Source: Leucobacter musarum subsp. musarum
GTDB taxonomy: Bacteria; Actinomycetota; Actinomycetes; Actinomycetales; Microbacteriaceae
Assembly (NCBI RefSeq): GCF_001273845.1
Contig: NZ_JHBW01000087.1
Location: 1 to 64,000, forward strand
Direction: 5' to 3'
DNA: 64,000 bases
Below, piece by piece: positions 206-62,370 of the stretch. Position 1 is the stretch's first letter. Each line of letters starts with the position of its first letter. Position numbers and translations under genes: made by a program. The notes under the pieces are model-generated. The model was not told the DNA's origin. It did no database searches and saw only the letters and a program-made list of their open reading frames with translations.

Positions 206-3097
206 ATGAGTGTCTTGCTCATCCTTGCTCTGGTTTCGATTGTCGCCCACCCCGCAGCCCGACTCTTGGGGCGTCGGGTGTTTGGGGTTTTCGCCATCGT
301 GATGGCCGCGATCTTCGTCGTTCTCCTGTCGCTGGCGCCAGGCGTGTACGGCGGCAACACGATTGTCGAGTCATTCGTGTGGGTGCCGCAGATCGATCTC
401 ACACTGACCTTCAGGCTTGATCCGGTCGCGCTCTTGTTCGCACTGCTCGTGACTGGAGCGGGTGCGTTGGTGCTGTTGTACTGCACCCGCTACTTTGAGC
501 CCCGAGAACCCGGACTCGAGCGCTTCGCCGCTGTCTTCATGGGGTTCGCGACGTCAATGCTCGGGCTTGTGCTTGCCGACGATGTCTATTTGCTCTTCGT
601 GTTCTGGGAAGGCACGACGATCTTCTCGTTCCTGCTCATCGGGCACCTCACGCGACTGCGGACATCGACGGCTGCCGCTCTGCAAGCGTTGATGGTGACG
701 ACGTTCGGTGGGCTCGCGATGCTCGTCGGCCTGGTGCTCCTTGCCCACCAGGCCGACAGTTCTTTGCTTTCAGAGATTGTTTCCACTCGACCCGAAGGTG
801 CTGTGGGCACCACCGCGGTATTCCTGGTGCTTGCGGGAGCACTCTCGAAGTCGGCGATCTTCCCCTTCCATTTCTGGCTCCCGGGTGCCATGGCAGCACC
901 GACGCCGGTGAGCGCCTATCTGCACGCAGCGGCGATGGTCAAGGCCGGCATCTATTTGATCGCACGCATCACGCCCGCCTTCGCAGACGTACCGGGATTC
1001 CGCGAAACACTCGTGGTACTCGGTGCCGTGACGATGCTCAACGGCGGTATTCGTGCTCTGCGCCAGTTTGATATCAAACTGATCGTCGCGCACGGCACAG
1101 TGAGTCAACTGGGCTTGCTCGTGATGGTGTTCGGCGTGGGTGATCCGCGTGCAAGCTTCGCCGGCTTTGCGTTGCTGTTCGCGCATGCCGTCGCAAAAGC
1201 TCCATTGTTCTTGTCAGTGGGCATTATCGACCACGCAACCGGCACCCGTGATCTGCGCAAGCTCAGTGGGTTGGGGCGTCGGATGCCCGTGCTCGCGGTC
1301 ATTACTGTGCTCGCGGCAGCGTCAATGGCCGGGGCTCCGCCGTTCTTCGGTTTCGTTGCAAAGGAATCCGCGTTCACAGAATTGTTGGCGGTAGCTGGAG
1401 ACGAGCCGATTGCCTGGGTCGCGTTTGTCGTTGCAGTCGTCGGAAGCCTGCTAACTGTCGCCTACATGGGACGCTTCTTGTGGGGAGCCTTCGGGCGTAA
1501 GACGGGCGTCGCGTCTTGTCGCGTCGCCCGTGACCCCGGTCGATTCATCCTGGTTGCTCCGGCACTCTTCTCTGCTACGGCGCTCCTTCTCGGGATCGTT
1601 TCCAGCAGCGTCGACCACGTACTGCAACCACTCGTGCCTGAGGCTCGTGAGCGGGGCATCGAGATCGAGCACCTCGCACTCTGGCACGGGTGGACTCCGG
1701 CGTTGCTGGCGTCGGTCGTTGTGTTGATCCTTGGCATACTTCTCGCGCTCCGGTTGAGCCGCACACGCACATTCGCACCACCACCCGTTGAACGTTGGTC
1801 CGCCTCGCACGCGTACTGGGTTGTCACTCATTTCGTCGATGTGCTTGCCGTGCGGGTGACCGCAATCACGCAGCGCGGCTCTTTGCCGTTCTACTTGGCC
1901 GTCATCCTCATCGTGCTGGTCGCGGCGCTTGGCGGCACGGTGCTGTTCACTGGCGAGTGGCCCAGCGAAGTGGTGTTCGCGACCTCACCGGTGCAGATTC
2001 CCATCGCCATCGTGATGATCATCGCCGCGTTGTTCTCGCTGCGTGCACGTACGCGCTTCCAATCAGTGGTGCTGGTCGGGGTCACTGGGTACGGCATGGC
2101 CGCAATCTTCGCCATGCACGGAGCTCCCGACCTGGCTCTGACACAGGCCCTGGTTGAAACGGTCACGCTGATCGCGTTCGTTCTTGTCATTCGTCGACTC
2201 CCACAGCGGATCGGCAGCCGCGCAACGCGCCCGAAGCGCTGGGCGCGCGGAGCAATTGGTCTGGGAGTTGGACTCGTCTTCGGCGCTCTTGCCGTAATTG
2301 CTCTGGGATCCCGAATCGCCGAGCCGATTTCCCTACAACTTCCCGAGCTTGCCTACGCCGGCGGCCACGGGAGCAACGTCGTGAACGTGATGCTGGTCGA
2401 CATTCGCGGTTGGGACACGATGGGTGAACTCTCGGTGATCCTGGCCGCGGCGACGGGCGTCGCATCCCTCGTGTTCGTGAGTACTCGCGTCGACACCCGA
2501 CCGAAGATCAGTCGCCGTGCGGCGCGTTCGGCAGCGCAGGAGCATCTCATGCGCGTAGCGGATCCGCAGGACCCGGCGCGGCGCATGTCGTGGGTGCTTG
2601 CCGGGCGACACCTTGACCCTGCGCGACGTTCGATCCTGCTCGAGGTCGTGGTGCGGCTGATCTTCCACGGGCTGATCATCTTGTCGATCTACCTGTTGCT
2701 GACGGGGCACAATACCCCTGGTGGCGGTTTCGCCGGGGGATTGGTGGCCGGTCTCGCGCTCGTCGCTCGCTATCTGGCTGGAGGGCGGCATGAGCTCGGC
2801 GCGACCGTACCCCTCGATGCCGGGCGCATTCTGGGGACCGGACTTGCGATCGCAGTGTCGATGGCATTCCTTCCCATGCTCTTTGGACAATCCGCGCTCG
2901 CGTCAGCCTGGGTCGATGTCGATCTCGGCGTCTTCGGTACGCTGCCGCTCGTCACGTCCACACTGTTCGATGTGGGCGTGTACCTCGTAGTCTTCGGCCT
3001 GATTCTCGATGTATTGCGCAGCCTCGGAGCCGAGATCGACGAACACGAAGAAGCCGATATTGCAGCATTCGAGGAAGAGGAGGTGAGCGCACGATGA
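206..3097 (+). CDS. mrpA: Mrp-type Na+/H+ antiporter subunit A with fused MnhB domain
   Basis: Large polytopic membrane subunit of the multisubunit Na+(K+)/H+ antiporter, related to NuoL of complex I. The N-terminal two thirds carry the proton-channel core with the family signature APTPVSAYLHAAAMVKAG. The C-terminal part holds an MnhB-type domain with NTPGGGFAGG, so subunit B is fused to A, a known arrangement for long MrpA proteins. The start at 206 has GGGAG five bases upstream; ATG 194 is an in-frame alternative adding four residues (967 aa). The stop overlaps mrpC by 4 bp, indicating translational coupling in an operon mrpA-C-D-E-F-G. The complex supports pH and sodium homeostasis at the cytoplasmic membrane. 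Confidence 0.95.
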   Translation: MSVLLILALVSIVAHPAARLLGRRVFGVFAIVMAAIFVVLLSLAPGVYGGNTIVESFVWVPQIDLTLTFRLDPVALLFALLVTGAGALVLLYCTRYFEPREPGLERFAAVFMGFATSMLGLVLADDVYLLFVFWEGTTIFSFLLIGHLTRLRTSTAAALQALMVTTFGGLAMLVGLVLLAHQADSSLLSEIVSTRPEGAVGTTAVFLVLAGALSKSAIFPFHFWLPGAMAAPTPVSAYLHAAAMVKAGIYLIARITPAFADVPGFRETLVVLGAVTMLNGGIRALRQFDIKLIVAHGTVSQLGLLVMVFGVGDPRASFAGFALLFAHAVAKAPLFLSVGIIDHATGTRDLRKLSGLGRRMPVLAVITVLAAASMAGAPPFFGFVAKESAFTELLAVAGDEPIAWVAFVVAVVGSLLTVAYMGRFLWGAFGRKTGVASCRVARDPGRFILVAPALFSATALLLGIVSSSVDHVLQPLVPEARERGIEIEHLALWHGWTPALLASVVVLILGILLALRLSRTRTFAPPPVERWSASHAYWVVTHFVDVLAVRVTAITQRGSLPFYLAVILIVLVAALGGTVLFTGEWPSEVVFATSPVQIPIAIVMIIAALFSLRARTRFQSVVLVGVTGYGMAAIFAMHGAPDLALTQALVETVTLIAFVLVIRRLPQRIGSRATRPKRWARGAIGLGVGLVFGALAVIALGSRIAEPISLQLPELAYAGGHGSNVVNVMLVDIRGWDTMGELSVILAAATGVASLVFVSTRVDTRPKISRRAARSAAQEHLMRVADPQDPARRMSWVLAGRHLDPARRSILLEVVVRLIFHGLIILSIYLLLTGHNTPGGGFAGGLVAGLALVARYLAGGRHELGATVPLDAGRILGTGLAIAVSMAFLPMLFGQSALASAWVDVDLGVFGTLPLVTSTLFDVGVYLVVFGLILDVLRSLGAEIDEHEEADIAAFEEEEVSAR

Positions 3098-60968: not shown

Positions 60969-62180
60969 TCAGACCGCTGCGGCGTCGCGCAGGCGCTCCG
61001 CGACGAAGTCCACGTCTTTGTCGCCGCGCCCCGACAGGTTCGCGACGATGACCGCGTCCGCGGGCAGCGTCGGAGCGAGCTTGATGACCTGCGCGAGTGC
61101 GTGCGAGGACTCGAGCGCCGGAATGATGCCCTCGACTTTCGAGAGCGTCTGGAACGCGGCGAGCGTCTCCGCATCGGTCACCGACACGTACTCAACGCGC
61201 CCGAGCTGCTCAAGGTGGGCGTGCTGCGGTCCGACTCCCGGGTAATCGAGCCCCGAAGCGATCGAGTGGACGGGCGATGGTTCTCCCGATTCGGTTTGCA
61301 GCACCTTGGTGCGCATGCCGTGCAGCGTGCCCGGCGTGCCGAGCGTCATCGTCGCGGCGTGACGGTCGCCCTCGAGCCCCTCACCGGCGGGCTCGACGCC
61401 CTGAATGCGTACCGACTCATCTTCGAGGAACGCGTCGAACAGGCCCAGCGCATTCGAGCCACCTCCCACCGCGGCCACCAGCACATTGGGCAGCTTGCCC
61501 TCGGCCTCAAGAATCTGTGCGCGGGCTTCGCGGCCCACGACCGATTGGAAGTCGCGCACCATCGAGGGGTAGGGATGCGGCCCAACCACGGAGCCGATGG
61601 CGAAGAAGTACTCGTCGGGAGACGCCGCGTAGACGCCGAATGCCGAGTCGACGGCCTCCTTCAATGAACGACCGCCTGCTTCGACGGCAACGACCTTCGC
61701 GCCGAGCAGTTCCATGCGTACGACGTTCGGGTGCTGCTTCTCAACGTCGATCGCACCCATGTGGATTTCGCAGTCGAGCCCAACGAGCGCGGCCGCGGTT
61801 GCAAGCGCGACGCCGTGCTGACCGGCACCCGTTTCGGCGATGACCTTCGTCTTGCCCATTCGCTGGGCGAGCAGTGCCTCGCCGAGGCAGTGATTGATCT
61901 TGTGGGCCCCGGTGTGGTTCAGGTCTTCGCGCTTGAGGTAGATCTTCGCGCCGCCGAGCCTGCGGGTGAGGTTTTCGGCGAAGTAGAGCAGCGAGGGGCG
62001 ACCGACGTAGGTGCGCAGAAGCGCCTGCAGCTGATCCTGGAAATCCGGATCCTGCATCGCCTCGGCGTAGGCCGTGGCGACCTCGGCGATCGGGCCGGCG
62101 AGGAACGGCGGCAGCTCTGCGCCGCCGAACTCGCCGAAATTACCTTCGGCGTCGGCACGGTAGGGGGAAGTCTGAGTCAT
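60969..62180 (-). CDS. trpB: tryptophan synthase beta chain
   Basis: 403-aa PLP enzyme joining indole and serine to tryptophan. PLP Lys94 lies in [16 protein letters not shown] and NLSGRGDKD bind the cofactor phosphate and end the protein core. It is of the standard TrpB1 type. No trpA or trpC is adjacent: trpB stands alone, on the strand opposite to priA and fmt. AAAGGA precedes ATG 62180. Its leader has a WW peptide and an attenuator, so it is regulated by tryptophan supply. Confidence 0.96.
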
Positions 62181-62216
62181 GGGTGGTCCTTTGCTTCATT
62201 GCGCCACTCGGAGACG

Positions 62217-62244
62217 AAAAAACACCGCCCTCGAGAGGCGGTGT
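62217..62244 (-). terminator. trp attenuator terminator
   Basis: On the reverse strand, ACACCGCC (62244-62237) and GGCGGTGT (62229-62222) form an 8-bp stem followed by TTTTTT down to 62217. It lies between the leader peptide and trpB, 37 bp before the trpB start. The 5' arm can instead pair with GGCGGT at the leader peptide stop region, giving an antiterminator. Confidence 0.88.
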
Positions 62245-62268
62245 CGGTGTGCATGCGCACGAGAGGGA

Positions 62269-62284
62269 GACCGCCTAGGCGGTC
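62269..62284 (-). promoter_or_regulatory. trp leader palindrome (regions 1:2 of attenuator)
   Basis: GACCGCCTAGGCGGTC is a perfect 16-bp palindrome covering the last codons and stop of the leader peptide. Its first half (region 1) pairs with the second half (region 2). When a ribosome stalls at the Trp codons just upstream, region 1 is covered and region 2 (GGCGGT) is free to pair with ACCGCC of the terminator stem, preventing termination. Confidence 0.8.
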
Positions 62285-62307
62285 CACCACTGCTGCACGG
62301 TACGCAT
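62275..62307 (-). CDS. trpL: trp leader peptide, 10 aa with tandem Trp
   Basis: A 10-codon reverse-strand reading frame, MRTVQQWWTA, with two adjacent Trp codons three codons before the end, then TAG. It is directly upstream of a terminator hairpin before trpB, the classical attenuation layout. No Shine-Dalgarno is seen; TATGCT (62319-62314) lies exactly six bases before the ATG, so the leader peptide mRNA is probably leaderless. It is too short for ordinary gene finding. Confidence 0.88.
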   Translation of the reverse strand: MRTVQQWWTA

Positions 62308-62370
62308 ACGAGGAGCATAGCAGGATCGCAGCGGGCCGCACGAGCCCGAGTCAAGTGGGAGAATGGTCGA

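Follow-up and report, generated by a model that had tools for sequence, protein, structure and literature searches.

How is a trpB gene controlled when it stands alone in a genome that carries other copies of trpB, and what does a ten-codon frame with two adjacent tryptophan codons do in front of it? The question is raised by a stretch of 64,000 nucleotides from Leucobacter musarum subsp. musarum, referred to here as the window, on the minus strand of which the features described below lie. The stand-alone gene (60969..62180) encodes a TrpB of 403 amino acids that scores 557.5 bits against TIGR00263 (cut-off 392.45) and falls below the curated cut-off of the TrpB-like family TIGR01415 (162 against 518.85); its Shine–Dalgarno sequence, AAAGGA, can be read from the sequence at 62187..62192. 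Upstream is a divergent gene that we take to be fmt-like, and a gene that is presumably priA-like converges on trpB from downstream, both being named from their translations; given these neighbours, the window trpB is alone on its strand, and it is monocistronic. Among the 36 genus loci fetched, some of which are short, an fmt match was found in 24 and a priA match in 21.

Three trpB genes in this genome exceed the TIGR00263 cut-off: the window copy, a copy in the order trpC-trpB-trpA (the main trpB) and a copy on contig C92. The main trpB is part of a stretch (62300-76900) that we take to be hisG-hisF-hisI-trpE-..-trpC-trpB-trpA. The third copy (G000:C92:140985-142127, L002) groups with the main TrpB in a tree, and its neighbours are presumably purine-nucleoside-phosphorylase-like and amino-acid-permease-like genes, to judge from their translations. 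Both copies were considered as further carriers of the leader described below and were rejected, as neither has such a leader: in a search of the genome with R1, a model made from leaders of the genus, the window leader was the only strong match (E 3.2e-18; next E 6.2). In this genome the proposed attenuator is therefore tied to the extra trpB only.

Six residues (Res6) tied to stand-alone activity of the kind seen in LBCA TrpB are listed in the accessible part of PMC11917138. When the window protein is aligned to LBCA TrpB, taking the paper's number as the chain number plus 2 (an inferred offset that fits all six), it has D46, Q52, S63, S197, M289 and R290 at these positions, where E, E, T, S, A and M are expected, a match at 1/6. 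Since the residues for stand-alone activity are mostly absent, the window TrpB may require TrpA. The accessory TrpB presumably helps at tryptophan shortage, for example through the use of free indole or by providing more β subunit.

The leader frame and its conservation

The leader frame, MRTVQQWWTA-stop, occupies 62275..62307 with its ATG at 62307, and its tandem Trp codons TGG TGG (62284..62289), the putative sensor, do not vary among the 28 leaders in alignment A1. The initial annotation had described this frame together with a 16-bp palindrome at its stop codon, and both are confirmed on the minus strand. It had also placed TATGCT six bases before the ATG; the motif is found at 62319-62314 with exactly this spacing, as part of an extended -10 element, TGC-TATGCT (62314..62322). 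Among 32 ten-codon leaders, a TANNNT ends 6 nt before the ATG in 28 and 7 nt before it in four, while no TANNNT occurs in them at any further offset 0-30 nt before the ATG; TGn precedes the TANNNT in 29, and a Shine–Dalgarno-like word 5-16 nt before the ATG is present in one and missing from 31. Because TANNNT ends 6-7 nt before the ATG in 32/32, the frame is, from sequence comparison, very probably leaderless, as had been suggested, and transcription would start at its ATG (62307) or right beside it. The ATG lies exactly 18 nt before the WW codons in 32/35 frames of the genus; the remaining three frames are of 13, 13 and 15 codons, with WW in phase with a start that was chosen by the usual promoter spacing.

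Loss of the WW frame among relatives had been named beforehand as grounds for giving up the idea; this was tested across the genus and did not occur. A window-type TrpB is present in 35 of the 54 genomes searched (in 34 of them at 77-88% identity to that of the window, which is the 35th), and a leader with a WW frame accompanies it in all 35, one copy being split by an insertion. The main TrpB is also present in 34 of these 35 genomes (the exception is G016). Matches to R1 at E <= 5.5e-4 occur in exactly the same 35 genomes; a single weak match (E 0.057) is found among the 19 genomes that lack this trpB, and two of the 35 have one further weak match each (E 0.013 and 0.033). The WW codons stand directly ahead of segment 1, the first of the pairing segments of the leader, in 34/35 leaders read; in genome G003 (L023/L181) the WW frame lies beyond an insertion of approximately 1.1 kb that separates segment 1 of the leader from segment 2.

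The G003 insertion (L181, approximately 1594-2671, reverse strand) contains an open stretch of 332 residues that is transposase-like, and is probably IS481-like. Both halves of the leader remain, with segments 2-4 and trpB behind the insertion, so that G003 represents a natural attenuator mutant. A separate anomaly concerns the trpB at G019:C11:69085-70271, which is matched in two overlapping pieces (77-78% identity) and is perhaps frameshifted; its leader, L180, is intact.

Hairpins of the leader and the proposed attenuation

Segment 1 (62279..62285) pairs with segment 2 (62268..62274) to form hairpin 1:2, which coincides with the 16-nt perfect palindrome GACCGCCTAGGCGGTC (62284-62269) that contains the stop codon of the leader frame. 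Segment 3 (62236..62244), the loop CTCGA (62231..62235) and segment 4 (62230-62222) form hairpin 3:4, a terminator of the form ACACCGCCT/CTCGA/GGGCGGTGT that spans 62244-62222 and is followed by a U-tract of six T (62222-62217; segment 4 and U-tract together, 62217..62230). The terminator and its six U had been recognized at the outset; its stem, given then as 8 bp, is 9 bp by folding, with an energy of -15.1 kcal/mol that 0/200 shuffles equalled. The leader RNA (62306-62215) folds at -46.3 kcal/mol (z -3.74), with 1/200 shuffles as good.

Covariation of hairpins 1:2 and 3:4 was assessed in two alignments. A1 comprises 28 of 30 fetched genus leaders (L023, which is split by the insertion, and L014, a near copy, were left out; L010 is cut at its 5′ end) and gives 27 distinct rows for this purpose. 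In A1, 96.3% of cells are paired, against 92.7 in shuffles, and two-sided changes occur at 6/16 pairs, with 12 such cells against 1.6 shuffled. In A4 (44 leaders, without the near copies L014, L032 and L034 and without L023 and L135), 97.4% are paired and two-sided changes are seen at 9/16 pairs, in 41 cells against 8.8 shuffled; A4 was fitted to the model's own structure, and kinship of the sequences inflates these shuffle contrasts. One pair of 1:2 is unformed in 11/44 A4 leaders. Across these alignments, helices 1:2 and 3:4 covary.

The complementarity of GGCGGT in segment 2 to ACCGCC in segment 3, on which mutually exclusive structures had been proposed, is real, and the pairing potential of the antiterminator 2:3 exists because segments 1 and 3 share ACCGCC. 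It pairs 87.0% of cells against 87.4 in shuffles (500/500 shuffles as high), a slide by +3 still pairs 85.0% of cells, and two-sided change was found in 0/6 pairs, so that 2:3 has no covariation of its own. When 12 or 15 nt were masked, beginning with the first Trp codon, in 34 leaders of the genus and in L123 (35 in all), the stretch up to segment 3 folded at a mean of -14.6 or -13.2 kcal/mol, respectively. In the three leaders where the structure was inspected, that of the window included, masked folds contained 2:3 and unmasked folds 1:2.

A further helix involves the start codon. Its 5′ arm lies within 62290..62307 and its 3′ arm, with approximate ends, at 62249..62260 in the spacer between segments 2 and 3. 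In 33 leaders, 31 of them distinct (L010, L023, L178, L179, L134 and family f12 were left out), pairing of the 5′-terminal 18 nt with their own spacer gives -12.6, compared with -9.49 when spacers are swapped between genomes (sd 0.40; 0/50000) and -6.3 when shuffled. No swap out of 100000 was as good among 19 leaders less than 85% identical, 117 were among eight leaders less than 75% identical, and 4154 among four leaders less than 70% identical. The start-codon helix thus covaries by this swap test, and it would hide the leaderless start codon in untranslated or released RNA.

We put the probability at roughly 0.87 that this leader attenuates transcription of an accessory, monocistronic trpB in response to tryptophan, by way of a ribosome translating a leaderless frame. 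The reading draws, by comparison of sequences, on anatomy, conservation, promoter spacing and covariation, both of the two hairpins and of the start-codon helix; the start site, the stalling and the response to tryptophan are inferred. It is favoured because WW is conserved, both hairpins covary, the spacing of the -10 element is fixed and 31/32 leaders have no Shine–Dalgarno-like word, which supports the interpretation given in the initial annotation. The leaders of other length that keep WW in phase, the 2:3 pairing in the masked folds inspected and the recurrence of the element before Trp genes of other genera and families, described below, also speak for it. Against it stand the lack of covariation in 2:3, the 1:2 pair left unformed in 11/44 leaders and the outcome of the Rfam comparison given below. 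Transcription would begin from or next to the ATG, and MRTVQQWWTA would be translated from the very 5′ end. When Trp-tRNA is plentiful, the ribosome would reach the stop codon within the 1:2 palindrome, 3:4 would form, and the polymerase would stop at the U-tract. When Trp-tRNA is scarce, the ribosome would stall on the first Trp codon and cover segment 1, allowing segment 2 to pair with segment 3 before segment 4 is made, and transcription would enter trpB. A leader that is not translated would adopt the start-codon helix, 1:2 and 3:4, leading to termination.

Complementarity behind the terminator

Directly after the U-tract lies segment 5 (62202..62216), which is complementary to the apex of the terminator (approximately 62226-62240), that is, to the end of segment 3, the loop and the start of segment 4. 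Identical hairpins were collapsed, reducing 41 trpB leaders to 30 (no terminator was found in L185 and L129); the set counts L199 with trpB, its contig ending before the gene can be identified, and the result stands without it. Across these 30 distinct leaders the energy of apex:5 is -22.3 for own pairs, -18.27 for swapped pairs (sd 0.55; 0/50000) and -15.7 for shuffled ones (sd 0.63). Within the genus alone (24 distinct leaders), 0/100000 swaps were as good, and after thinning to leaders less than 85, 75 and 70% identical (23, 10 and 7 leaders) the counts were 0, 12 and 149 of 100000; the signal is gone among four leaders less than 65% identical, where 8242/100000 swaps were as good. It is also lost when the partner window is slid upstream of the apex, in a test made with windows of segment 3 plus loop. 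On these comparisons, the apex:5 helix covaries.

Segment 5 was considered as a participant in the decision to terminate and rejected: it lies behind the U-tract and would not yet be made when RNA polymerase stops, so no effect on termination is expected. Its pairing, taken alone, is predicted to be more stable than 3:4 alone in 24/29 leaders (means -19.7 against -16.1), and when the sequence up to 34 nt past the terminator is free to fold, the minimum-energy fold contains apex:5 in 16/29 leaders and 3:4 in 13/29. For the window the values are -20.6 for apex:5 and -15.1 for 3:4, yet 3:4 is retained when the entire leader is folded together with the beginning of trpB. It is possible, and we suggest it with reserve, that segment 5 is functional, either refolding the metastable terminator of readthrough mRNA into a longer hairpin immediately upstream of the trpB ribosome-binding site or serving as the site where released leader RNA silences residual trpB mRNA. 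If true, attenuation would be followed, after the termination step, by another level of control that affects mRNA stability or translation and is common to several lineages of Actinobacteria; a conserved pairing behind the terminator is absent from the textbook model of attenuation.

Inverted repeats can arise when the template is switched at a hairpin, and segment 5 may perhaps be a functionless mutational by-product of this process, a tentative explanation that competes with a functional segment 5 and leaves the attenuator itself untouched. A by-product would fit the finding that own pairing tops its row in just 6/23 thinned leaders, as well as the retention of 3:4 by 13/29 leaders in the free folds. 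It would also fit the failure of the test confined to segment 3 and loop in the leaders before TrpEG-like genes described below (p 0.26 to 0.56), although in these leaders the test on the whole hairpin gives z -4.6 (31 distinct). Against it, own pairs beat swapped ones even in the 10 leaders less than 75% identical, and other hairpins lack the trend: 55 hairpins that resemble terminators, taken from 464 kb of the same genome and many of them perhaps not real terminators, have a mean z of -0.15 with 7% below -1.5, compared with -1.92 and 70% for the 30 leaders L005-L034. Scores below that of the window leader were obtained for two of the 55. In leaders L178 and L179 the terminator loop is of 17 nt, and the complementarity of the downstream segment has grown too (-26.2 and -33.5 kcal/mol).

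The same apex bears on a reading in which the leader is a Trp attenuator but works mainly through its product, the terminated RNA or the peptide, in trans, in the manner of rnTrpL and peTrpL of Sinorhizobium meliloti, with segment 5 of the trpB mRNA as a possible target. No Rfam trp leader family matched the window leader at E <= 10, and 62218-62301 matches RcsR1 (RF02552) over the full length of the model at 24.1 bits (E 0.0078). This match and the complementarity of the apex to segment 5 speak for action in trans; the match is, however, far under the gathering threshold of 60 bits, and probably reflects shared architecture rather than descent, while every readthrough mRNA carries the same apex in cis, which should win. 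We therefore regard a main role in trans as unlikely and retain attenuation of trpB in cis as the preferred reading.

Known systems, spread and target genes

Several systems resemble this leader. In Streptomyces lividans TK24, the accessible part of PMC8079986 reports that TrpL1, before a monocistronic trpE, is transcribed leaderless, and that TrpL2 precedes trpS. Like the window leader, trpL1-trpE has a leaderless short peptide with adjacent Trp codons (MFAHSTRNWWWTAHPAAH), hairpins, a U-stretch and a monocistronic Trp gene; it differs in its target, trpE, and in having three Trp codons, and no pairing behind its terminator is described in that part of the report. S. venezuelae is placed with it by reference (Lin et al. 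1998, cited in PMC4833913). Seliverstov 2005 predicted trp attenuators in Corynebacterium and Streptomyces, including those of C. diphtheriae trpB1EDGC and trpB2A (PMC1262725, in the sections available). These are of the classical Trp type in Actinobacteria and two have trpB as first gene, but there trpB heads a multigene operon; the window trpB is alone and belongs to another clade than the main TrpB of its genome, in a tree that does not include the C. diphtheriae genes.

In Sinorhizobium meliloti, the 5′ end of rnTrpL is the ATG of trpL (PMC7298713, accessible part), and trpL/rnTrpL (RcsR1, RF02552) shares with the window leader both Trp attenuation and a 5′ end at the leader ATG (PMC7298713 and PMC7143759, accessible parts). 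It differs, on the same sources, in controlling trpE(G) and in acting in trans, and the window leader reaches only the 24.1 of 60 bits given above. The ilvBNC leader of C. glutamicum is likewise actinobacterial, with terminator, antiterminator and anti-antiterminator, but serves a branched-chain amino acid operon, and the accessible part of PMC11857589 mentions no hairpin behind the terminator. The initial annotation had called attenuation of an isolated trpB with a leaderless frame less usual, which is too strong for the leaderless part in view of S. lividans TrpL1 and S. meliloti rnTrpL, as far as the available portions of PMC8079986 and PMC7298713 go. Among the papers listed by literature searches that left most subscription papers outside, neither an attenuator on a lone trpB nor a segment of the segment 5 kind behind a terminator was found. 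As S. lividans trpE already offers a single gene behind a leaderless trp leader, the kind of attenuator is known and its lone trpB target is new; the start-codon helix and segment 5 are extra, conserved pairings.

Outside the genus, R2 matches at E <= 0.05 were obtained in 82/398 family genomes and 63/396 order genomes, two samples that overlap; weaker matches are probably due to chance. Among the loci read, the downstream gene encodes a window-type TrpB in g1, g20, g73 and family f12, and a TrpEG-like protein in most, as in L168; neither follows in four loci of family f14 and in L199, where the contig ends. Chorismate-binding and GATase domains are present in both of the TrpEG-like proteins that were tested over their full length, and both remain under every NCBIfam cut-off listed. 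The f14 gene of L206 is trpS (260 bits, cut-off 176.75), and the other three f14 genes start with the same residues when read from the DNA. Family f14 (L206, L209, L210 and L217) thus has the same leader type ahead of trpS; in the three of these leaders with a terminator found, its apex again has a complementary stretch, located 24-30 nt farther along.

The promoter spacing extends to these leaders. The 56 loci checked represent 53 places (L184/L127, L185/L129 and L187/L136 are repeats), and in 48 of these a start codon that is in frame with WW has a TANNNT 6-7 nt ahead of it, a figure that is softer than that for the genus because the start itself was chosen by that spacing. The five places without it are the four trpS leaders, none of which has a TANNNT 5-8 nt before the start codon, and L190, which has one Trp codon and was missed by the pattern.

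In a 109-row TrpB tree, made with a quick method and rooted at its midpoint, a single clade with support 99 unites the lone TrpBs of g1, g20, g73 and f12; it adjoins 13 TrpBs from Hyphomicrobiales, Comamonas, Campylobacterota, Bacteroidota and others and is apart from the main TrpB of the genus and the C92 copy. All six genomes with an attenuated trpB that were counted across genera have a second trpB (G000, G187, G260, G211, G485 and G786). Genomes with an attenuated TrpEG-like gene have an extra chorismate-binding match of more than 300 bits in four cases (G249, G276, G174 and G152; own trpE 294 bits), and in G311 and G157 no such match was found.

One leaderless Trp attenuator module thus appears to have been joined, lineage by lineage, to trpB, to fused trpEG-like genes or to trpS. 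That the leader is no more than a 5′ UTR in which WW codons occur by chance, its terminator merely limiting trpB transcription with no sensing of tryptophan, is very improbable given WW in 35/35 genomes, a fixed promoter spacing with the Shine–Dalgarno-like word missing in 31/32, covariation of both hairpins and recurrence of the element before three kinds of Trp genes. The proposed attenuator of the window, in a genome whose his-trp cluster is without the module, would offer a clean natural system for attenuation with leaderless initiation.

Two candidates were set aside. The second trpB of G502 is nearer to the main type than to the attenuated type (59.6 against 50.8% identity) and has no WW frame in the upstream stretch inspected, and L135 is a false positive of R1 with no Trp frame. 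A scan for Trp-rich frames in the 450 nt upstream of the 13 other TrpBs nearest in the tree gave no candidate in 11 loci and one each in two. At L072, in the Bacteroidota genome of Ancylomarina salipaludis, a WW frame of 22 codons lies 166 nt upstream of trpB, whose product belongs to the sister clade.
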